Program-made: the position numbers and the translations under genes
Notes under the pieces: generated by a model
What the model was told of the DNA's origin: nothing
The model's database searches: none
What the model saw: the letters and a program-made list of their open reading frames with translations, nothing else
Part shown: positions 47,004 to 64,000 of the stretch, piece after piece
How the letters are laid out: every line of letters begins with the position of its first letter
How positions within the stretch are numbered: position 1 is the first letter of the stretch
Origin: Owenia fusiformis
Lineage: Eukaryota; Annelida; Polychaeta; Sabellida; Oweniidae
Length of the DNA: 64,000 bases
Direction: 5' to 3'
Assembly: GCA_903813345.2 (NCBI GenBank)
Contig: CAIIXF020000001.1
Location: 15,209,915-15,273,914, forward strand

Positions 47004-47197
47004 TTATGTCACGTGGATCTGGAAAGGACTTCCTGGAATATCCTCGCCTCCCCAACGAACGTAAAGTTGGTGCTCTCCCTTCTCGCGGCCAGCCTTGTAG
47101 CTGCATGTATAGACCGTCTTGGTTGTTTTCTTGATGGTTACTTCTTCAGCCAGTTGTCCATTTGGACTGATCATATTGATAAAGAGAATGGCGGTAC
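47004..47197 (-). CDS. FLN: Filamin last exon: dimerisation repeat (IgFLN24-like) and stop
   Basis: Encodes the final 64 codons, from T-A-I-L-F-I-N to [15 protein letters not shown] and TAA (47004-47006). In vertebrate filamins the last repeat forms the homodimer interface. The family core W-G-(D/G)-E-(x)-(V/I)-PGSP(F/Y) is present. The acceptor is TTCCAG at 47198-47203. Confidence 0.93.
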
Positions 47198-50100: not shown

Positions 50101-53100
50101 ATTAATTGAAATTGAGACTGTTTGTCTTGTAACCTTGTTATGTATTCACCAGTTATTTACTAATTTCCAGTTTGTCTAATGAACTTGATTGGCATTTTTG
50201 TATCAATATAATTGCAATATGTTATGCCGTGGTCACATTTGCTCCGATTTTTACTTCGGTAAATCGGAGCAAATGTGACCATGGCATTAATCTATTTCTA
50301 TTATATCATCTCTCCTACAGTACTATTGTCGTTTCCATGCAAATGTTATGCAATAGTACTATAATATATCAGTTATAGTGTGTTAATTGGGCAATAGTAC
50401 ATACAAACCGTTGCGAATCATAATAAATGATTTCTGATGTTAAATTTCCCCTGGTATTTGTCTCGAATAGGGCTAGATTTCTTTAGGCCAGTATAGTTAA
50501 ATGGGGACACAGTGGTGACTTTTACAATTCAAACGTCATTACAATTTAACTTTTCTTCCTCTTAAAACGATTTTACCAGGACGGGAACAGGTTTAAATGC
50601 CATGCCTACCTGCGTCCTTTACGTCAATCGTGAATGGAGTGCTCCTTCCCATGAACGCTTTCTTCAATCCATTTCCTCTAGCAATAACCTTTGCAGCATC
50701 TCCCGTGAACTTCTTCTTGGCCACTTGGCCTTCTTTCTTGTCTATACACTCAACTACTATGCCAGACTGCTCAATCACGCTGCTCTTTTTGCCTGCGCCT
50801 GGAGCAAAATAATGGAATACAATAAGAAACGAGGAGTGAAAGTGCTTTATGCTCTTACATGGTATAGGCTTTTTTAAACTGGCATGTTCTAGAGGATCAT
50901 TCTCGGCCTGTAGAAGTATTTCCGAATTTATCATGACGTATAAAGAAAAAACTTAGCCGAATCTGAACGTTAGCATTATTGAACGTAATGACTCTTAAAT
51001 CTTGATCAGTGACTACTAAAATATCGACAAAATATACTAATTTAGTAATTATGGTATTTACCTGTAACGTTAACCTTGGCAGGACTTCCAGCAATGGTGA
51101 TGTTGCTGTACTTTATGTTGATCAGGTAATCGCCAGGAGACATAGGAGTGTAGTTAAATTCATAACCAGTGTCTATCTCCTTGCACATTACCGCCACCTT
51201 TGAAGGTCCATCAACGGTTACCGACATGAGTCCCTCTCCCGCACCAACAGTGTTTACAACGAACGCTGACTTTTTACCTGGAAAATTGTTCAAGGAAATA
51301 TATTTATAATTGGTTGATTTCTAATGTTATTAACACGACGTTTTGTTTTGTTTGTTTTGTTATCATACCTATATCCTAATCTAACCATGGTATTTAACGT
51401 CAGCTTGCTCTTTGAATTAAGTGACGGTTTAATAAAACTAAATATACCGCATATGATACATTATCTTATATATTATGTTAGTCTCAGATAAATGCAATGA
51501 GTTTATAGACTCTTACCAACTGCTCCAGTGACGAGCCCGTCTCCAGCGGCGTGTACCATAGCAGGATCTGCTACTAGTCTGCCGACCATCATGGGGAAGG
51601 GGCTGCCTGGGATATGAGCTTCGTTGAGGAAGACACTGACATAGTGGATACCATTCTCCCTGTGGCACATAATTCAACATTAGTATTTAAGTTCCATACT
51701 TTCAGAAATAATTGAAAAGTGGGAAAATGGCTAATTCGATACAATTTGAGAAAAATATTTGTTTTTGGACTATCATTTTACTATAACGTAAGACTATCCA
51801 AACATATTTTAAAAATATTATTTCATGCATTTTTGTTATGGTCGAAAACTGATCAATCATTCCATGCACATGTTGTTTATCTCTTGGGTATCAACTCATT
51901 TCGAACAAATATTTGCACATTGTTAATCTCCAATTCATACTTATGACATGCACGTTAATTGAAATACTTGTGAAGATAATGACATTCAAGACCTCTCTGA
52001 GTGAAACAAAAGTGTGATATTTCTATTATATAATTCGTTGATTAATTAGCGAAGCAGATTGACGACTTATTAACACCTCGGTCGACATAGGGCGTTTGCA
52101 GAACTCACTTTGGTATGAAACGAACGACATAGTTGTCGTCAGGGTCGATCTCTTGCACAAAGCAATCCTCGGTGGCTCCAGATGGTGTGTCCACAGAGGC
52201 ATGGGTTGTTCCCGTGGCGCCGTTGTATTTCACGTTAAACGTTGCTGCTTTTCCAACCTACAAAAAATATTTGCATCTTATTTGAGATTGCGAGTGTATC
52301 TCATTAACGTTCAAATGCCTGACAACTGTCTTAGAGAAAGTAAACTTAAAAAGATACAAATATATTGAATTTCATATATAATTATTTATCGCATGATCTG
52401 TAAAATGAAGCCCTCTGATTGGTCAGTTCTTGTGCTGTACCAATCTGTATTGCTACTGAGATTGTCCGCGTTGATCATCTCCGTCGCAATACAGAAAATA
52501 TTGGTACGGAGGAGACAATCTCAGTAGCAATACAGAGGATAACACGATAAAAACGTTATTGAATGATTTGAAGTGCAATACAGGATATATTCTGTCTCGA
52601 TATTCTGTATTGGCACTCGACTTCGTCTCGTTCCAATACGGAATTTCTCGAACAGAATATATCCTTATTGCACTTCAAATCATTCAATAACTTATAATAT
52701 CGTTGTCATGGTGACATGACGATATACTGTATGCTATCATAATTACTCTTATGTATTCATATTTAGCATACTGTCGGACTTTTTCTTTTTATTAAGATCG
52801 TTTACGTGTGGTATGTCAATAACACAGGGTGATCCAAAGAGTGGTCCATTCTAAATGAATAGTAGAAAATTAATTTTTCGAATTTTGATTAGATAAAAAC
52901 TTTAGTTTGCCGTTTTTTCATCTTTTTCTTCCAGACTCTCTTGATGACACCATACTATATGTCCTTAGCGTTGGTCTTTAAGCTTTGTAAACAAATGCAA
53001 TTGTCTCTTAGCCGTGATTAGAATGTGGAAAATGTGCCTCTGGACTTGAAATAGATTTGTGTGTAATGCACTTTCTTACCTCTTGATCTTGCATGTGCCT

Positions 53101-56100
53101 TTCTTCCTGATCACACTTATATTTTGGGTTATCATTAACAATGAAACTAAACCTTTTCCCCAAATCATTTACATCGGGCACCCAGTGTCGATGCTATTTC
53201 ACCTCAACAAAGTTAAATAGCAATATACCAATTCGAAATAAAGCGTTTTAGCAAAAGATTCGGCAAAAGCAAGCTTTCATATACGTTGCAGAGGATAAAC
53301 CATTGACCGAACAATGCATTTGGGCGGAAAAATTAATTTTCTATGCAAGTTTAACAAATATTCCACCTTTTCGGACTACCCTGTTTAGTTATGCTACCAT
53401 GTATGCAAATACTAGTTAACTGATTAAAAAGCACGCAACGAGGCCTGCAAATCATAAACCAGAACGATTACTAGAACGAGCATCTTTGGTTTTATGTGTA
53501 CATCTATCTATTCTATGTATAGCAGGATTAGAGAAGATGGATTTCATTTAGGGGAATCTGCGGCATGAATGGCAAAGATGTCCAATTGACACAATTCCTT
53601 TTGCATTATGACCACGAACTTATTGATATAAAATATGTATTTATTTTATTTTTTTTATTTATATAAAACAATGAGAGGAAAACTGTGTGATGCCATTGGC
53701 AGAATACTTGAACATATATGTGCTATCACATCACGAGTGAACAATTTTGGGAGGACAGTCTTTCTCGCATGGCCATCTTGCCTCAGGTTCCCCTAATGTT
53801 CTACAAAATCCGGTAACTGCTTACCCCATTTAGTTTATATCATATGACAAATCACACCTTGAACAGTAACGACTATACTATTACTAACTCTTTCTATTCT
53901 ATTTGTTATCACAATCTGCGTCACCAACAATTAGAAGGATTTTGGAAGATATCTTATGGTATGGGTAGTTTGGTTATGGGATCTAGTTGGTGGGATAATG
54001 ACTCAAATTTGTAGCTAGGTTAAAATGGGTAATCATTGGTAATCTAGGGGTATTTTAAGTATGTTATTATTGGTACAACAACAGTTTATTCTAAAAGTTA
54101 AAATAGTATTTTTCTATCATACCATAGCATTATCGAGTAAGTCTCGTGAAATTATCACATGAAATCAGTTTAGCTGATTTGTCCAAAAATCAACTTCACC
54201 ATAAATACAACTATACGATAATTTAGATCAAATGTACCAATTCGAAACAATGTGAGAACCTTTAATTATGCAAACAGCACACAACAAAGCGTCCATAATA
54301 TATCATTGTGACAATGGGGTGAAACTAAGTGCATCACTTTGAGCAAGCCACGATGTCACGTATGATGACCATGACAACCTACCTGGAGCCCCCTGTCCTT
54401 GAAAGCATGTACTGACACTTTCTTTGAGTCAACGCTGGAGGGAGTGACATGAACGATGATTGGTGACTTTGGAATATGATTGTCATCCCACTTAACATGG
54501 ATTCCATATGGGCCTAAAGACACAGATATTCAACTACTATAACTAGAGTACACGCAGTTTGCGTTAGTAAACGCGTAACGACGATACATGTAAAAGCAGA
54601 ACATAACAATATTCATATTATTAGGCTTTGTCATTAATCTGAATCCATGGATGAAAGGTTTTAATCTCAACATCCCAGGTTAGACTGACTAAACATCCCT
54701 TTACTTCATCATGTTATGCACGATTGGGAAAAGGATATTTTGATGACGTAAATGATATGAATATTGTTGCCTGGTGTGTTATTTTACGTACCTGTTTCCA
54801 AGAAACATGTGTGTGGGCAAACGTTGTTGAGTTTGAGAGCCATCTTTTGGCCATCTACTACTTACTGATCTGATTGTATTGATGCCAAATATGATATAAA
54901 ACATTGCCATGGTAAATATGATTGGCATATCATGCTTGACATCAAAAGTACGATAATTGTTCGTAAAAGTGTTACAGCAAATGATCGCACATTTTAGAAA
55001 TAAATCAAAGGTGTTTGTGAAATTCGGTCTACTGTCCACACATGCGAACCCGGAAACTAGCTACAATAAAGCTGCCAGCTGTGGCTGTGACTGCGATAAT
55101 GCAGCAGAAAGAGGCACAAACACGCCATAAGCGCATATCTAGTGAACGGTAAGGCATGTCTAACCTCCAAACCACGGTCTCTCAACGCGTGAACGGAGAG
55201 CTTTGTTGCCTCGCCACTGTGAGGAGTCACGTGACAGTTTAATGGTGACTTAGGTGTGTGTACATCGTTCCACTTTACGTGGACACCATACATTCCTACA
55301 GGTCAGACACACATATAATCCCTAAACAATGGTAGCTAGTCTAATAGCAAATCAGTCATGACATTGCTCTTTTATTATCTTTTAGACCCGTTGAGTATTA
55401 CTAGACGCACAGAGATCAAGACCTGTGGCAGGGAGAAGAGTGTTATACAATGGTGCATCATTCACAATAAACTAGATCGGGTTAACAAAAGTATCCACTG
55501 CTTTACAAAGAGACAAATAATAGATACACTGCATTGAAAATAATGAAGGAACATCTATTATGAGAGCATTGACGTTGACATAACATCCTATTAACTAGCT
55601 ACCTGATTTTCAGAGCTACAAGGAGAGACAGGATCACAAAGACTCGTGGGGACAGAGGATCAGAGGGAAATCATAGATGTAAACAAACATGTTAAATAGA
55701 ACATTAGTATATTCATATCTTGAAAATATGTGCATTAATGCTCAGTTAAATCCATTTATCAAGAAAATATTTTGCAATTTCGAATCTTTGAACTATATAG
55801 CGTATAGTCTACGTAAGTGATTGGTGGGCATTTTTTTCAAAAATTATGCTACGTGCCAGCCAAAATATCCTCCCATTATTCTTATTAGTGATAGGAAGAT
55901 TCACACCAATTTTCAAGATATCAATATTAAGACGAATATTTACAAATAAAGAGGATTTAAATCACAATTACAATGTTTTGAATATTAATAATGTATATGG
56001 GGTTATTTTCTGAAATGAAGATTTTTAATCACTTAATCACAGACTCACAGTAGAGAAACTAAGATAAACTAAATATTGGGATAAATTCCAGGAGCAGGTT

Positions 56101-59100
56101 TTCCAAGCAGCTTGTCTTGCATTGGGTGTGAGGGTACCTAGAGAATATACCTTTATTATTAGTTATGATGGGAACGTAAGCATATTACGGTGATCTTGGT
56201 GTCTGGGGTCAGGGTGCTACACAATTCAATGTGCCGCTCTTACATCTTTGTTCGGATCTATCATATACCTCCATAGCTCCTTGGTTTCTTTCATCGTCGC
56301 TAGCTTTAGTGGTCGCTCAATGTTCTAGCATTCACCTACCTACGCGCACAACTCTAAAACATGTTCCCAGTGTTCACAGAGCACAAAATACCACTATATC
56401 AAAACCACCACCAACACAAATCACCACAAAGGTCAGTATGTTTACAAGGTGCACATTAAGTACCAATATTCATTGAGGTTGTCTTTCTTGGGACGGTTCA
56501 TGAGTGGTTCTTTATGATTCGGTTCAGGCCATGCATGGTTCACCAGGTCACTGACAGTTTACGGTCAACAAACCTCTAATCCTCGATCTTTAAAAGCGTG
56601 CACGGTGACTTTATTAGCATCCGCCGCATCAGGGGTAACGTGGATCATGATCGGGGATGCATGAGCGTGCTCATCGTTGTACTTTATATGGATACCATAG
56701 TTCCCTGTTAATACCAGTAAGGAAGGAAATATTAATAGAATTTATCGAGTTGTCTAACAGATCATATGTCAGTTGGGGGATATGGGCGTAGCTAGCTATG
56801 AGGCAGGCGAAGCAACTGCCAAATACTGAAAAATATTTTTAGACGTTTTCTTATCTAAAACATTTTGTCCTGTTGAAGTTTAATATCCTCTTTGCCATTT
56901 TAACTTTTACCTCGCCTTTGGAACCTTGCCTCAACTTTCTGGACGCTGGCTACGCCCATGAGAGAGTTGACGTGGAGGAGTAAGAAATAATAGGTGATAG
57001 CTGCAATAAAGAAAAGTTAAGACATAGGGCCTGAAAGGTGAAAAGATTGATCAGAAGGTATAGCGTGCAAAGAAGAATGAGAGAAGGAATGCATTAGGGA
57101 GTTATACATATCGAATGTCCAAACCTCCAACCCCTTGTCTTTGACATTGTGTACTGTGAGGTTATTTGCCTCCCTAGAAGTCGGTAGGATTTGGACGTAG
57201 ATTGGAGACTCTGGGACGTGTTCCTCGTTCATCTTGATATGTACGCCATATGTACCTATGAACAAATACTTGCATGTCTTTATTTACTTTATTTTTTATT
57301 TAATTGATATTTTATTTTACTTTTATAGAGGTTGTTGCTAATGTTAGTGATTATCGTATTATGTATATATGTATCAAACACACATAGTACGTAGATATGC
57401 TCCAATAATCTGTCGTGAAAATGAAGTTGCTGAGTTATTCTTCAATTATAAACCCTCTTCGGGAAACCCAAGAAGATCTAAGATTGAATTGAAAGTTTGC
57501 AATTTTGTGCCATACTAATTGAATGTAAATATAGTTCTTTTAAAGTATAGTTTTACAATGTGTTCTCACTCTATAAAGTGGTAACCTTTGGAAATCAGTT
57601 ATTGAAGAGTATCAGATAATGAGTTTTGATTAAAAGGCATATGGTGTAAGTGTCTTGTGACAATAACAATTATTAGCAATTATTACTATTGAAATGCCAG
57701 ATCGTATTGTGCAAATGAGTCGAAAGTCGTGCTTACCTGGTTTTGAAACTTCGTAGCTAATACCAATAAAACCATTTTTACGATCTTCAAACCCAATTTT
57801 GGCCTTCGATGGTCCTTCCACGGCAACAGACAACTGCCCGGGGCCAGCTTCTCGTGTGTAGATGTTGAACGAATCTGAAAAGGTAAAACACTTGTATCAG
57901 CAGATAGTCAAGTTACGTTGTTACCCTATATCCCAAAGTCACTCACTCCTTTAAGTATACCTTCCGGATAAAGTTTCTAATCACACTTCTCCTTGATTTT
58001 TACTTTCAGTGTGTGAAATGCTTTAATACAATATTATTGTTTATATTATAGTTAAATATGATGTTTTGTTGAGAACATTTGACATGTACATTGGTCAAAA
58101 CATCAACACTGACTCACTTTTGACGCCAACCTCCCCTCTTTCCAGGCCTGTTCCGCCGACTTCCACTTTGTGTGGGCCTCCAGCTGTCAGTTGACCCACT
58201 GTGTATTGGAAGGGACTACCGGAGCAATGAAGACCTCTATATTTCAATGAAACCGTGTGGACACCCTCCATTTTAGGAGAGAATTTAACATCATATTTGG
58301 AATCCTCAAGATCTCGGATTTCACACAGTTCTGTTTTTCCCTCTGGGTCTGTCAAAGATGCTTCAAGATCAAATGGATTTGTACCTAAAACACATAAATC
58401 ACTACAGATATAGTTATACCCAATCTATTCAATCATATGACTTATAGTCCATATTACGTATTTTTACCTAACCTTTTAGACCTTATGTATTACATTGAAG
58501 ATTATATAAGATTGTATAAAATATCGTATGAAACAATTGTCTCTGATTAGAGATTTTTGAGCCAGTAATATAAATATCGCAATAGTTCCGATTTCAAGAG
58601 TTGAGCATACCGGGTATTTTGAGCATGAATTCACACTTGCTGCCAACACCCACATTGTCGGCCTGGGGTATATCTTTCACCAACGTTTCACGGGATCGCC
58701 CAGAAGGTTTTCCTCCAACGTTAACAACAAAAGGACTTCCTGTAACATAAACAAGTTTATTATGTTTTGTTGCAATTGAAAGTTATAATTACTCTAAATG
58801 CATTCGTTCAACTACACGCTTCTTAAAAGAGAGCTTCGTCGGTAACTTGATGCTGAGCGCATGATGGTTTCATAGTTTCCAATAGGATAGTTTCTAAATA
58901 GCAGAAAAATCAATGAAATCTCGTGCTGCCATCTTTTATTCAGCTTTTAACTCTGGCTAGAGCTCCATTCACTTACATGCTAAAATCTTGGAAAAGTGGC
59001 TTAATTTCATGATTTATCAAAGTGTGTTTGTTGAATCTGTATAAAACTTGAATGATATACCACATGATGACCCTGTTTATGAACATGTTGTGATTAAACA

Positions 59101-62100
59101 TGCTAATGTTGATTGACATACAAATAATCCACGGTTTTAAAGAATTTTAGCATTGCATCTATGGACATTTGGCCCAACTTTTTTTAAATTGTCATAGAAA
59201 ATTATTCAAATTACATAACTTCGTAAATCAAAGCTATTTTAGGAGAAAACATTCCACTGAATTCAAATATACCATTTAAAAGAAGGTAATGTAAGTCATT
59301 AGAGGTCTAATATGCAAGTCTCTTAAAATCTCACGAAAAACGAGATTTAGCGAGATTTCAAAAGCTATATGGAAACTATACTATAGGATAGTTTCTGCAT
59401 ATAGTTATTTTCAGATTAGGGGGATAAGTACGGCAACGAAGATTATTATAAAATACGAATCATATTTTATCAATGTATCATCTAAAGTTCAAACAATTAT
59501 TCAATTTAAAACTACGTACTACATTTCAAATTAAACGTCATCAGTTTTAGTTGTCATTTATAAGTTTATATTTGGAGTATCTCTTCACTTGGGATTCAAT
59601 TAAATAAGAAATTGACAAATTGCAGTACAATAACGCAGATGCGAGTAGGTAGTTACCAGTTTCGCCACCAGGTGGCTCGTTTGGGTCAGATAACATGGCG
59701 GGTATAGTATAAAGTTCCCTTTAACTTGAATTACATCTGTTTTAGTGGTTCAATTTTTATATAACCCTTATGTATCTAATAGTTATGCAAATTAAAATAT
59801 GTCCAGTAAAAGAAAATGTTATCTGTTCAACACAAGAAAAGATATTTCACTTTTTGTGATTTTGTAACATGGGGTCTAGATGAGGAATCAACCTGAGCTA
59901 GAAGTCACATTTTCCCAAAAGATTAAATTTTCAAAGTTGATAAACAATTTTCGAAACCATTTTTCTAGATGCACTTTTACATGTAGATTTCAAATATGAC
60001 ATCACTTTGACTGAATTTTGAATATTAAATGACGTAAATCAAGATTATTTCTATTCGCATCTAGTCTATTGTTTTTAGATTCATCAGTAGTACCTGGTAT
60101 ATGTTCATCGGCGAATATAACATTGACAAGATATATGCCAGGTTCGTGGGGTTTGTAGTTCACAGTGATAACACCCTCGGCGTCTACTGTATGTTTAATG
60201 TCGGATCTGTGGCCGCCCTCTATCGACACACCGCAGTTACCGTAACCTAGAAAAATGAACATCAACTCCTCGTTCATTATTTCAGATTAGCATGACACAT
60301 ACTTACGATCATTTTAAAGATATATTTGATGAGTAGTATCACCCATTGATACGATGGACATATGGTTGTTTGGATTTTAACTTCGCATTTATTAACCAAT
60401 ACTTTATTGAAACATGTGATACAAAAATAAAATCCAAACTAATGCAAACAACTATTTTGATCTAAATATTTAGAATGCAACCATTGTAAATCTGATACTT
60501 CTAAATGGCCCAGATATCGCAACAGTATGAAATGAAAATTTGATTAATTCTTCCAATCGTTGACGCCATCCTCGCTCCTCACCTGCGCCTGCTGTGAAAA
60601 TAGTGAACTCGTTGTCTGCGTTAGACACTGCATCTGAGATACCCTTGCCGGACACTTTCACCTTGCTGGCACTTGCGAGCTCCTTGTCACCTATGGACAC
60701 TGATAGTGGACTACCTTTGATGTTCTTCTCATCTCTCTTTATCTCAATAGTATGTGTGCCCTTCTCCTTTGGTTGAAATGACGAAATTCCTGCGGTAAAC
60801 AAAAATAATTCATGCTAAAATATTTCCTGGGTAAAAAGTTAAGGTAAAAAGTAGACCATAATGAAAATGTGTCTCAGTGATAATTGGTCCAGTTCTATAA
60901 CAATCGATACACTAAATGTGTATAAAAGGTTAACGTTGCAAAAAGAGGGAGGGCCCCGGACTACCACATGCTCACTACCATTATATCTGTCACGTGGGTG
61001 TCACATGATATACAAACCTAAATGCCCGTTTGGCAGCTTCTTTAAGATGCATGTTTCAACTGATCCACTTGGGTTTTTATGTGTTCCAACAAGACCAACT
61101 AGATCTGCCTCACTTATTTTAGTGTCATATTCGCTGCCTGTGCTTACAGATATTTGGGAACGTTTTCGACCTTCACCAGATACCTTGGCAGAAAATGGCG
61201 ATCCAGATATATTCCTGCCTTTATTTTTGACTGAAATAGAGTATTCGCCTGGAGACATAGGAGTATAGGCAACGCCGACTGTGCCGTCTCTGTTTTTGGT
61301 CAGCTTTGCGTCACATTTAGATGGTCCGTCAATTGAGACTGTGATATCGCCTGAAAGAACATGTTTAGTTTCTTTTTACATCATCCCTGCAATTCTCGAA
61401 TCCGTTATCTAAATGGAACTGAAACGGGGCTTGTATAGACTAAAGACTTCAGTTTCAGTTTCATAGTGCATACTGTCACTGGGGCATTTCCTATTTTACA
61501 TGACTGACTTTAAACATGTGTTTCCCCACAACAACATCGATAAATAATAAGGGATACACGGCTTTGACTACTAGATATTTAAAACTGTTGAACAAGGTGA
61601 GAAATCACAAGATTTTAGCTCTGCTTAGGAGTCTCAGATTGCAGCTACCCTGTGGTTCTTCAAGCTTGTACACATGTTATACCACGCATATGGTAAGCCA
61701 CACCATAATACATTCAAGAAATATAGAAATCAGGTGCAAGAAATCCTTTCTTTGAAATTCCTACCTGGGTTTTGGGCTGCAACGTGAAATTCTGTTACAT
61801 CACCGCTCATGCCGGAAGAAAGTCCATGGCCGTAGGCGGTTACGTATCCGCTACCAACTGCGTCCACGTGACAAAGAAATGGGCTACCTGGAGAATTGAA
61901 CGTAACATGATTTATATATTATATAATATAATATATTTTATCCCACCCTAAGTGCTTTATATGATTGTATAATAGCATTGTATAACTGCAATATAAAACC
62001 AACACTCATCGTATACAACTCTTGAGAACGAGTACAGTACAACTCCTGGATAGCGTAACTCCTGGGTAGCGTATACAACTCTTCGACTTGATATACAACT

Positions 62101-62887
62101 GCTGAATTTAGATTAATCTTTTATTGATCAAATATTAGGGTGGGATAATAAGATCATATAATGGTTGATTCTGTATATCGTTATACTCTCGTGAGTATAT
62201 ATTATATTCACTCTTTCCCTTCAGTCACTCGTGAATATATCATATATACTCACTTGAGTATAAACACGATATACGGAATATACGGAATCAACCATTATAT
62301 AATCTCATAATGTAAGCGCTAGTTTATCAGGGTACTATATCAAAAAGCTAGAACCAGCCTGATATACAGTTACAAAATTGCAAGCAACATTTACCAAGCC
62401 TAATATTATCTAAAAAGTATGATATACAATGTACGATGTTATTTAAGATCCATAAATTGCAGAAATACGTTAAATTTTCACATCGTGGTATCAAATACGT
62501 TGATAGAAAAATCATGAATCAAAATATGGGCTTCCAGAAGACTCTTAAAGCCAGTGATCAAACATGATTAGTTTATTTACATTTTACACGTATGGACAGT
62601 TGTCCCAAACAGGAACTTTATCAAATCTCATAGGTATGCTTTTTTGCGATTGTTATAAGCTTACGTGTACATGTATTCATAGGGTGCTATCCGTTTCACA
62701 AAGATTCCTAACAAGGTTATTGCTATGATGTACGAGTATGCTTATTGCTTACCGTCGACGGGCTGGTCATTGTAGCTCATCACCATTTCGTGGATGCCCT
62801 TGGCACTGGTCTGATATGTGACTCCCACTGATCCATCTTTGTTGGCAGTCACCACGGGGTGTGGATTTCCTGAAGGCATTTTGGATT
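47004..62887 (-). CDS. FLN: Filamin, C-terminal part (IgFLN repeats, hinge and last repeat), 5' partial
   Basis: Filamins crosslink actin and bind integrin tails through chains of ~95-residue Ig-like repeats. Coding exons in transcript order: 62753-62887, 61765-61887, 61018-61350, 60583-60789, 60094-60246, 58611-58739, 58118-58384, 57737-57874, one of four 131-bp exons (57125-57255, 56574-56704, 55165-55295, 54383-54513), then 52109-52257, 51517-51659, 51062-51277, 50610-50798, 47004-47197. Every join keeps phase and every intron is GT-AG. Hallmarks: repeated GSPF motifs, VEGPSKA and IDGPSK strings, YTP(M)SPG strands. Order and sequence suggest repeats equivalent to about 17-24 of vertebrate filamins, ending HVT-stop. 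The actin-binding domain and earlier repeats lie right of the window. The hinge before the last repeat is short. Several introns carry transposons. Confidence 0.96.
47500..49165 (+). mobile_element. 5'-truncated, frameshifted non-LTR retrotransposon (CR1/Jockey-like ORF2)
   Basis: Plus-strand pieces in different frames: [20 protein letters not shown] then a stop (about 47500-47574), [20 protein letters not shown] and LYADDSSIF (47652-47987), and [16 protein letters not shown] through 49000. The last piece ends with a Cys-His pattern C-x-C...H-L-x-x-K-C-P, common at the C-terminus of such elements. A 3' region with AAAATAAAG and A-rich tail ends near 49165. It is antisense to filamin and inactive. 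Confidence 0.88.
49245..49845. mobile_element. Family C element, copy 2
   Basis: GGAATATTCCTTGCCAAACC and GGTCTGGCAAGGAATATTCC are inverted ends. Inner halves also mirror each other (GGTAGCTATAACCATATATA, with its inverse TATATATGATTATAGCTACC). It disrupts the outer element's right arm. Confidence 0.72.
50224..50287. repeat. Near-perfect 64-bp hairpin
   Basis: ATGCCGTGGTCACATTTGCT plus CCGATTT pairs with AAATCGGAGCAAATGTGACC plus ATGGCAT, with a ~10-base loop. It lies in the last filamin intron, about 320 bp from the hinge exon. Confidence 0.8.
50610..50798 (-). CDS. FLN: Filamin exon: short hinge and start of the last repeat
   Basis: Encodes [20 protein letters not shown], a lysine-rich stretch, then [20 protein letters not shown] and FTIDVKDAG. 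The second half matches the opening strands of the last filamin repeat. The Lys/Glu-rich first part replaces the longer proline-rich hinge 2 seen in vertebrate filamins. Confidence 0.88.
51062..51277 (-). CDS. FLN: Filamin exon: IgFLN23-like repeat
   Basis: Reads [20 protein letters not shown], then VDGPSKV, then [17 protein letters not shown] and [10 protein letters not shown]. All of these are standard filamin-repeat strands. Confidence 0.92.
51517..52257 (-). CDS. FLN: Two filamin exons encoding the IgFLN22-like repeat and start of the next
   Basis: Exon 52109-52257 ([16 protein letters not shown], then [17 protein letters not shown], then YVVRFIP) joins 51517-51659 ([20 protein letters not shown], then GDGLVTGAV). 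The Lys codon at the join is split 2+1. The first exon begins at phase 0, matching the end of each of the four alternative exons. Confidence 0.92.
52445..52535. repeat. Perfect 22-bp-arm inverted repeat in a filamin intron
   Basis: CTGTATTGCTACTGAGATTG(TC) pairs with (GA)CAATCTCAGTAGCAATACAG across ~47 bp. It lies about 190 bp upstream (in transcript sense) of the constitutive exon 52109-52257. Confidence 0.75.
52555..52691. repeat. Long inverted repeat beside the previous one
   Basis: GTTATTGAATGATTTGAAGT, GCAATA and GGATATATTCTGT pair with ACAGAATATATCC, TATTGC and ACTTCAAATCATTCAATAAC. Arms are ~40 bp, with a second small palindrome in the loop. Confidence 0.78.
52824..53384. mobile_element. 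Inverted-repeat DNA element (~560 bp)
   Basis: The left end ACAGGGTGATCCAAAGAGTG and the inverse of the right end ACAGGGTAGTCCGAAAAGGT match loosely. They are followed by a shared AGAAAATTAATTTTTC string. Termini of the ACAGGGTG type resemble those of the elements at 15698 and 47324. No coding frame. Confidence 0.65.
53385..54382. other. Filamin intron sequence, no recognised features
   Basis: About 1 kb of A+T-rich DNA between the inverted-repeat element and alternative exon d. No fifth 131-bp exon copy or other coding pattern was found here. Confidence 0.5.
54383..54513 (-). CDS. FLN: Filamin alternative exon d (fourth in transcript order)
   Basis: 131 bp, phase 1 in and phase 0 out. Encodes [17 protein letters not shown], then IIVHVTPSS, then [12 protein letters not shown]. 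Acceptor TTTAG, donor GTAGGT. It is the copy nearest the constitutive downstream exon. It spans the last strands of the IgFLN21-like repeat and the first strand of the next. Confidence 0.9.
55165..55295 (-). CDS. FLN: Filamin alternative exon c (third)
   Basis: 131 bp, same phases as d. Encodes [17 protein letters not shown], then LNCHVTPHS, then [12 protein letters not shown]. Acceptor CTGTAG, donor GTTAGA (weaker). It includes a Cys not present in the other copies. Confidence 0.9.
56574..56704 (-). CDS. FLN: Filamin alternative exon b (second)
   Basis: 131 bp, same phases. Encodes [17 protein letters not shown], then IMIHVTPDA, then [12 protein letters not shown]. Donor GTTTGT, acceptor AACAG. 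The usual (V/I)P(x)SP turn is changed to AHASP. Confidence 0.9.
57125..57255 (-). CDS. FLN: Filamin alternative exon a (first)
   Basis: 131 bp, same phases. Encodes [17 protein letters not shown], then IYVQILPTS, then [12 protein letters not shown]. Donor GTTTGG, acceptor TCATAG. The EEHVPESP turn is closest to the common filamin form. Confidence 0.9.
57737..58384 (-). CDS. FLN: Two filamin exons: IgFLN20-21-like repeats
   Basis: Exon 58118-58384 holds [19 protein letters not shown], then [12 protein letters not shown], then GSPFQYTVG and [13 protein letters not shown]. Exon 57737-57874 holds [20 protein letters not shown], then [14 protein letters not shown] and [10 protein letters not shown]. 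The latter corresponds to the strands that bind integrin tails in vertebrate repeat 21, and it is spliced directly to one of the alternative exons. Confidence 0.93.
58611..60789 (-). CDS. FLN: Three filamin exons (60583-60789, 60094-60246, 58611-58739)
   Basis: The first reads [20 protein letters not shown], then GSPLSVSIG, then [14 protein letters not shown] and FTIFTAGAG. The second reads [19 protein letters not shown], then [20 protein letters not shown]. The third reads [13 protein letters not shown], then [14 protein letters not shown]. Phases are 1 throughout. The intron between the second and third contains a family A MITE whose end is about 31 bp from the donor. Confidence 0.9.
59643..60063 (-). 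mobile_element. MITE family A, copy 5, in a filamin intron
   Basis: CAGATGCGAGTAGGTAGTTACC on the left and ATTTCTATTCGCATCTAG on the right are the family ends, here in reverse orientation. It is the most complete copy. It lies 31 bp from the exon 60094-60246 donor. Confidence 0.8.
61018..62887 (-). CDS. FLN: Three filamin exons (62753-62887, 61765-61887, 61018-61350)
   Basis: The first reads [20 protein letters not shown], then [19 protein letters not shown]. The second reads [20 protein letters not shown], then FHVAAQNPG. The third reads [13 protein letters not shown], then [17 protein letters not shown], then [15 protein letters not shown] and [12 protein letters not shown]. The first of these is the most 5' exon in the window and starts at phase 1, so further exons must lie to the right. 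Confidence 0.92.
62151..62305. repeat. Inverted repeat in a filamin intron
   Basis: AGATCATATAATGGTTGATT and CTGTATATCG on the left pair with CGATATACGG and AATCAACCATTATATAATCT on the right. Both are flanked at a distance by TATCCCACCCTA (61940) and TAGGGTGGGATA (62137), which suggests one palindrome inside another. Confidence 0.7.
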
Positions 62888-63049: not shown

Positions 63050-64000
63050 CTTATGCCCCCAACACTCAAAAGTGGCAGCATGATAGGTTTCACTCAAAAG
63101 TGACAGCAGAATAGATTTCACCCAAAGTGTTCTGCAGAATGGGTTTCACTCAAAAATAGCAGCAGAAGGAATTTCACTCAAAAGAAGCAGCAGAATAGAT
63201 TTCACCCAAAGTGGTCTGCAGAATGGGTTTCACTCAAAAATAGCAGCAGAAGGAATTTCGCTCAAAAGAAGCAGCAGAATAGATTTCACCCAAAGTGGTC
63301 TGCAGAATGGGTTTCACTCAAAAATAGCAGCAGAAGGAATTTCACTCAAAAGAAGCAGCAGAATAGATTTCACCCAAAGTGGTCTGCAGAATGGGTTTCA
63401 CTCAAAAATAGCAGCAGAAGGAATTTCACTCAAAAGAAGCAGCAGAATAGATTTCACCCAAAGTGGTCTGCAGAATGGGTTTCACTCAAAAATAGCAGCA
63501 GAAGGAATTTCACTCAAAAGAAGCAGCAGAATAGATTTCGCCCAAAGTGGTCTGCAGAATGGGTTTCGCTCAAAAGTAGCAGCAGAAGGAATTTCACTCA
63601 AAAGAAGCAGCAGAATAGATTTCACCCAAAGTGGTCTGCAGAATGGGTTTCACTCAAAAATAGCAGCAGAAGGAATTTCACTCAAAAGAAGCAGCAGAAT
63701 AGATTTCGCCCAAAGTGGTCTGCAGAATGGGGATCGCTCAAAAGTAGCAGCAGAATGGGTTTCACTCAAAAGTGTCAGTAGAATGGGTTTCACTCAAAAG
63801 TGGCCGCAGAATGGGTTTCACTCAAAAGTGTCAGCAGAATGGGTTTCACTCAAAAGTGGCCGCAGAATGGGTTTAACTCAAGTACTGTCAGCAGAATGTG
63901 TTTTTTTTCAAAAAAAACTCACAAGAAGCAGCAGAATAGATTTCACCCAAAATGGTTCCTCAAATGTGCGAACAGAATGGGTTTCACTCAAAAGTGTCAG
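63050..64000. repeat. Satellite-like tandem array: 28-bp unit in an 84-bp higher-order repeat
   Basis: The base unit resembles GCAGAATGGGTTTCACTCAA plus eight bases (28 bp). In the middle, three diverged units form an 84-bp block: CCCAAAGTG at 63121, 63205 and 63289 recurs exactly every 84 bp, up to about 63720. Beyond that, single 28-bp units dominate up to the edge. It lies in the filamin intron right of exon 62753-62887 and continues past the window. Confidence 0.92.

Follow-up and report, generated by a model that had tools for sequence, protein, structure and literature searches.

Four homologous exons in a short filamin gene

The window analysed here, a whole stretch of 64 kb with 35.5% G+C, sits at C1:15209915-15273914 of the 498-Mb genome of the marine annelid Owenia fusiformis, and a gene for filamin, a cytoskeletal scaffold protein, lies on its minus strand. 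Within this gene, four homologous exons of 131 nucleotides (nt), termed cassettes a, b, c and d, follow one another between the same two constant exons (E21 and E22), which is the arrangement of a mutually exclusive exon cluster. We consider it probable that they form such a cluster, that is, four tandemly duplicated exons of which one is chosen at a time, in a short filamin gene without the actin-binding domain. The exons concerned are as follows, in the order of transcription.

57737-57874, minus strand: constant exon E21 upstream of the cluster, 138 nt, repeat 21 strands B-E including C and D, donor CAG|GTAAGC
57125-57255, minus strand: cassette a, 131 nt, acceptor TAG (catag), weak donor GAG|GTTTGG
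56574-56704, minus strand: cassette b, 131 nt, acceptor CAG, weak donor GAG|GTTTGT
55165-55295, minus strand: cassette c, 131 nt, acceptor TAG, weak donor GAG|GTTAGA
54383-54513, minus strand: cassette d, 131 nt, acceptor TAG, strong donor CAG|GTAGGT, the copy carried by the public protein P0001
52109-52257, minus strand: constant exon E22 downstream of the cluster, 149 nt, phase 0 start, body of repeat 22

The initial annotation had reported four homologous exons of identical length at these places, starting in phase 1 and ending in phase 0, and re-reading of the sequence confirms this. All four start in phase 1 after E21 and end in phase 0 before E22, and the surrounding introns (481, 420, 1278, 651 and 2125 nt for E21-a, a-b, b-c, c-d and d-E22, respectively) are all of the GT-AG type. 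When a 144-kb stretch was searched by tblastn, every cassette retrieved the other three on the same strand with expect values (E) from 4e-12 to 3e-17. There is no fifth copy among the matches listed at 52000-57800, the next best having an E of 20.

To describe the consequences of the exon length, 16 ordered cassette combinations containing from 0 to 4 cassettes were translated. The four combinations with a single cassette each give a frame of 834 amino acids (aa) that is open to the natural stop, so the flanking exons are compatible with any one of the cassettes, as had been proposed. The other 12 (none, six pairs, four triples and all four) run into an in-frame stop after 501, 544 or 590 residues. 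With all four together the frame is restored by length, since 524 and 131 leave the same remainder when divided by 3, yet a stop is met inside the second cassette. It had also been claimed that the reading frame enforces one-at-a-time use. This stands insofar as all pairs hit a stop, but the frame polices the outcome and makes no splicing choice.

As for the gene as a whole, a single mRNA contains 14 coding exons in the window, from 62887 to the stop at 47004, and the leader exon is located 2.4 kb past the window edge. The public O. fusiformis protein P0001 (865 aa) opens with a 31-aa leader, and its residues 32-865 are identical to the gene model with cassette d, whereas the models with the other cassettes depart from it at 25 (a), 17 (b) and 17 (c) residues. 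The repeat 21-22 stretch with d matches PF00630 (Filamin/ABP280 repeat) with an E of 1.8e-20, which places the protein in the filamin family. Among the 27 CH-domain matches in the genome, the sole one on C1 is at 30.4 Mb and none is near the gene in the window. The assignment to filamin made in the initial annotation is thus borne out, but the gene encodes a short filamin of 865 aa without actin-binding domain, comprising repeats ~16-24, and not a full-length cross-linker.

Constraint, relatives and origin of the cassettes

Any two of the cassettes have 19-27 of 44 residues and 75-83 of 132 bases in common. For all six pairs, the replacement divergence (pn, 0.24-0.34 per site) is lower than the silent divergence (ps, 0.60-1.06 per site, which is near saturation), and bootstraps in which pn equals or exceeds ps number 0 in 1000 for five pairs and 8 in 1000 for the pair of a and d. 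In addition, each cassette retains all 9 columns that do not vary among 33 short filamins from other animals. Columns 495 and 498 belonged to the rule by which these 33 relatives were selected, and therefore 7 of the 9 are independent. H500 is present in all four cassettes, as it is in 33/33 short filamins and 0/93 other proteins, and H530, which occurs in 29/33 short filamins, is also found in all four. Judged from these sequence comparisons, the cassettes are under selection as protein; the silent and replacement divergence together with the invariant columns supports the idea that the copies are constrained at that level.

The relatives were taken from the listed 120 of 230 protein matches. 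Among the matches listed, the closest proteins (58-63% identity over the region) are almost all 819-875 aa long, and those that are named belong to molluscs and one annelid, Paralvinella. A tree of 44 columns was constructed from the 33 short filamins, the four cassettes and 7 of the 93 other proteins as outgroup, P0001 being left out as it equals d. In this tree, the cassettes group with the Paralvinella protein and seven others inside the short filamins (support 93/87). A single clade of the four cassettes is not rejected (p value of the approximately unbiased test, p-AU, 0.30, from 44 columns only), and the tree gives them no firm order. The cassettes share 18-28 of 44 residues with the eight annelid-like orthologues, compared with 19-27 among themselves and 23-39 among the orthologues. 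Either the cassette duplications are old or the copies have evolved faster. The mean identity of d to the 33 short filamins is 54% in the cassette, 65% in the preceding exon and 58% in the following exon (n = 32 there).

The initial annotation had suggested looking for the cluster in other filamins. Pairwise comparison of 34 short filamins (P0001 included), with one representative per 90% cluster, gave no sign of swapped cassettes. In the 37 pairs with flanks more than 75% alike, the cassette is roughly as alike as the flanks or more, the largest shortfall being 0.08, and 7 of the 15 pairs with the largest cassette shortfall involve Owenia. It should be noted that swapped isoforms in other species would stay hidden in such a comparison, because the database shows one representative for each of these clusters.

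A second Owenia filamin gene, on C5, offers a view of how the cluster might have arisen. CH-domain matches are located 5' of it on the same strand, at C5:30529930 and 30550283, from which we infer that it is probably the long actin-binding filamin. There, the equivalent of E21 plus cassette forms a single 269-nt exon (= 138 + 131), present in one copy with the same phase-0 end, and the 2.3-kb intron behind it contains no cassette-like match better than E 0.55. The 3' boundary of the cassette is common to both genes, since the C5 exon ends at the same phase-0 site, while the 5' boundary at CAG|G is either special to the short gene or has been lost in the C5 gene. In the short gene, a phase-1 intron at CAG|G divides this exon, and the 131-nt second half is present four times. 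The comparison suggests a route in which the second half was multiplied after the division, with intron gain presumably preceding duplication.

Traces of a longer-exon duplication were also sought. Candidate E22 remnants behind the donors of a and c (11/21 and 13/21 bases, respectively) are not convincing over four copies and were rejected; a fraction of 0.044 (a) and 0.004 (c) of the gene's 901 GT sites match equally well. Local alignment did not reveal E22 remnants either (98 to 312 of 500 shuffles as good), and the sequence before the cassette acceptors is no more like E21 than shuffled sequence (111 to 480 of 500 shuffles as good). A third locus, L018 (C7:14138811-14139020), shows a weak filamin-repeat match (E 3.8e-4), with a CH-domain match 6 kb off at C7:14145148, and is perhaps another filamin-like gene.

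Proposed choice among the cassettes

The donors of the cassettes are of unequal strength. Scored with a frequency table, those of a, b and c, which have T at +3, reach 3.4, 4.6 and 5.9 bits, compared with 10.1 bits for d, and the 12 remaining donors of the gene in the window range from 3.6 to 11.3 bits. The constant exon 61018-61350 also has a donor with T at +3 (TAG|GTTTGT, 4.0 bits), and therefore such donors are tolerated in the filamin gene. The splice-factor motif TGCATG occurs once, 39 nt downstream of b, in an intron where 0.2 are expected, and is absent from the four other introns, which is not significant.

Several observations weigh against regular use of all four cassettes, or against a mechanism that would keep them apart. 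The only public Owenia protein found, P0001, has d, and the public proteins searched gave no sign of a transcript that joins a, b or c. Fragments of the four variants with a length of 67 residues retrieved no candidate, and those of 220 residues gave 8 matches with E no greater than 1e-20, none of which, at 41-58% identity, can be from Owenia. Weak donors like those of a-c would also be in keeping with exons that are rarely used. An open frame is in itself weak evidence, because neutral copies often stay open: in a neutral simulation the frame of a copy survives in 19-59% of cases, depending on the number of changes, and in 19-25% after 80 changes. Cassettes a, c and d form long branches whose placement is flagged as unsure in the tree. 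As the introns span 420-2125 nt, steric exclusion is unlikely. Finally, pairing between docking and selector sequences was scanned by duplex energy, with 30-nt windows against the 200 nt upstream of acceptors or downstream of donors, and five of the six scans gave no signal (26/30, 6/30, 11/30, 8/30 and 17/24 shuffles as strong).

Could d then be the only cassette used in the protein, with a-c being either relics or 'poison' exons, which would be included now and then and, through the stop they add, reduce the amount of filamin? The content of P0001, the strong donor that d alone has among the cassettes, and the stop that any second cassette brings are all consistent with this. However, replacement divergence is below silent divergence for the pairs a-b, a-c and b-c as well (pn equal to or above ps in 0 of 1000 bootstraps each), and all copies retain the constrained columns and intact splice sites. 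We therefore regard exclusive use of d as unlikely.

Exclusivity by competing RNA pairing, with one docking site and one selector per cassette, has been put forward for insect Dscam, and PMC6071210 describes the general model. The sixth scan, of d-E22 intron windows against the sequence downstream of the donors, points in this direction: the weakest of the four pairings has -21.2 kcal/mol, a value that 4/60 shuffles reach. As the best of six scans, however, 4/60 is not significant, and the other five gave nothing. Moreover, the strongest fold-back of the region, at 52440-52700 in the same intron, with perfect arms of 26 and 23 nt, was rejected as a docking element, being a genome-wide repeat. 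A genome search with it, in which 40 of 1683 candidates were scored, gave 120 matches on both strands, and among these matches 40 (its own included) cover at least 257 of the 261 bases at 97-100% identity. It is probably a recently spread mobile element. We regard a Dscam-type mechanism as improbable here.

Least probable of the three is that use of the cassettes is alternative without being strictly exclusive and that double inclusion is a regulated off-switch of the gene: the introns are long enough for any exon-exon joining and all 11 multiple-inclusion products contain stops, but an off-switch alone fails to explain four diverged copies under protein-level constraint.

For the mutually exclusive cluster, competition between sites combined with frame-coded decay is the safest statement. 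We expect one cassette in each mature mRNA, which splicing would pick by competition between sites of unequal strength. Cassette d, with its strong donor, would likely be the default, and a-c would need help from trans-acting factors. Those mRNAs with none, two, three or four cassettes have a premature stop and would presumably be removed by nonsense-mediated decay.

The cassette in the protein, known systems and the rest of the gene

P0001, and with it cassette d, was modelled with AlphaFold2 from a 40-row alignment (mean predicted local distance difference test, pLDDT, 83.9; predicted template modelling score, pTM, 0.53). In the model, residues 526-569 belong to the cassette, which holds repeat 21 strands F (526-534) and G (544-549), the linker and, at 559-561, the strand with which repeat 22 begins. 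The strands at 492-500 and 505-510, which are read as C and D, lie in constant exon E21. The nearest solved structures are filamins. Among the best are human filamin-A Ig19-21, Ig20-21 bound to a migfilin peptide and a pair from a crab filamin, as well as the isolated filamin-A repeat 21, with a template modelling (TM) score of 0.94 on the target.

The groove between strands C and D is where integrin and migfilin bind, and it is masked by repeat 20; we take strands C and D of repeat 21 to be the ligand groove here. The initial annotation had placed the four exons at the end of the equivalent of the integrin-binding repeat 21 and the start of the next repeat, and had proposed that they could tune mechanosensing. 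The solved matches uphold the position in repeats 21 and 22, but the groove strands C and D sit, according to the model, in constant E21. Any effect on integrin-type binding would therefore be indirect, because the groove is constant and the supporting strands and the hinge vary. Whichever cassette is chosen, strands C and D would remain the same, and F and G, the linker and the strand that opens repeat 22 would be exchanged. We expect this to tune the hold of repeat 21 on its ligand or auto-inhibiting neighbour, as well as the repeat 21-22 hinge, and to leave the binding site itself in place. Provided that they are used, the cassettes amount to a natural four-way variant set beside a force-sensitive ligand groove in one protein, and the worm may build four versions of one protein spot.

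A bolder reading, which we put forward tentatively and hold to be rather doubtful, is that annelids of the Owenia lineage have evolved the cluster as a four-way selector, specific to tissue or stage, for the mechanosensing C-terminal rod of a dedicated non-actin-binding filamin. The swapped F/G strands and hinge next to a constant groove would then set ligand release or the unmasking force at four levels. An origin as early as the annelid radiation is conceivable, because the divergence among the copies equals that between them and the annelid-like orthologues.

Mutually exclusive exons are well known as a kind, and our limited literature searches found no earlier report of such a cluster in a filamin. 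Among the known systems, the clusters of arthropod muscle myosin heavy chain, with three to six variants (PMC2257972), are likewise tandem homologous exons, one per mRNA, that swap a short segment in a constant protein. They differ in the gene family and in the expressed sequence tag (EST) backing for some exons, whereas use is predicted here, and they have been compared over 22 arthropod species, whereas the filamin cluster was read in one genome. The human tandem-duplicated exon substitutions (PMC9741552) are similar in that the proteins are identical but for one homologous region, the changes being mostly conservative and the events mostly old; Owenia filamin differs in having four copies, and the search listing of that article shows no occurrence of the term filamin. 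Drosophila FLN90, the short isoform of cheerio/filamin, as given in passages of PMC5173320, is also a C-terminal filamin without actin-binding domain, of about 90 kDa. However, FLN90 is a second transcript of one gene, whereas in Owenia, judging from the public protein and the gene model, the short filamin with its 31-aa leader has a separate gene in addition to the C5 filamin gene, and no cassette cluster in FLN90 is mentioned in those passages. As for human FLNB exon 30 (hinge 1), on whose splicing QKI and RBFOX1 act, alternative splicing changes filamin function there too, by skipping of one exon and not by choice among homologous copies as in Owenia (PMC6103745).

The remaining coding exons of the gene in the window are listed below.

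62753-62887, 61765-61887, 61018-61350, 60583-60789, 60094-60246 and 58611-58739, minus strand: six upstream exons, repeats ~16-20, protein identical to P0001
58118-58384, minus strand: exon E20, 267 nt, repeat 20 and the beginning of repeat 21
51517-51659, 51062-51277, 50610-50798 and 47004-47197 (stop), minus strand: downstream exons, repeats 22-24, protein identical to P0001

Some 30-41 kb 5' of the leader exon, between L005:2272 and L006:3799, matches that are mostly 1328 bp apart (among the first ten) suggest a long tandem array. In addition, an 84-bp minisatellite with 9.6 copies and 93% matches is located at 63063-63868, in the filamin intron that separates the leader exon from the first exon with repeats.

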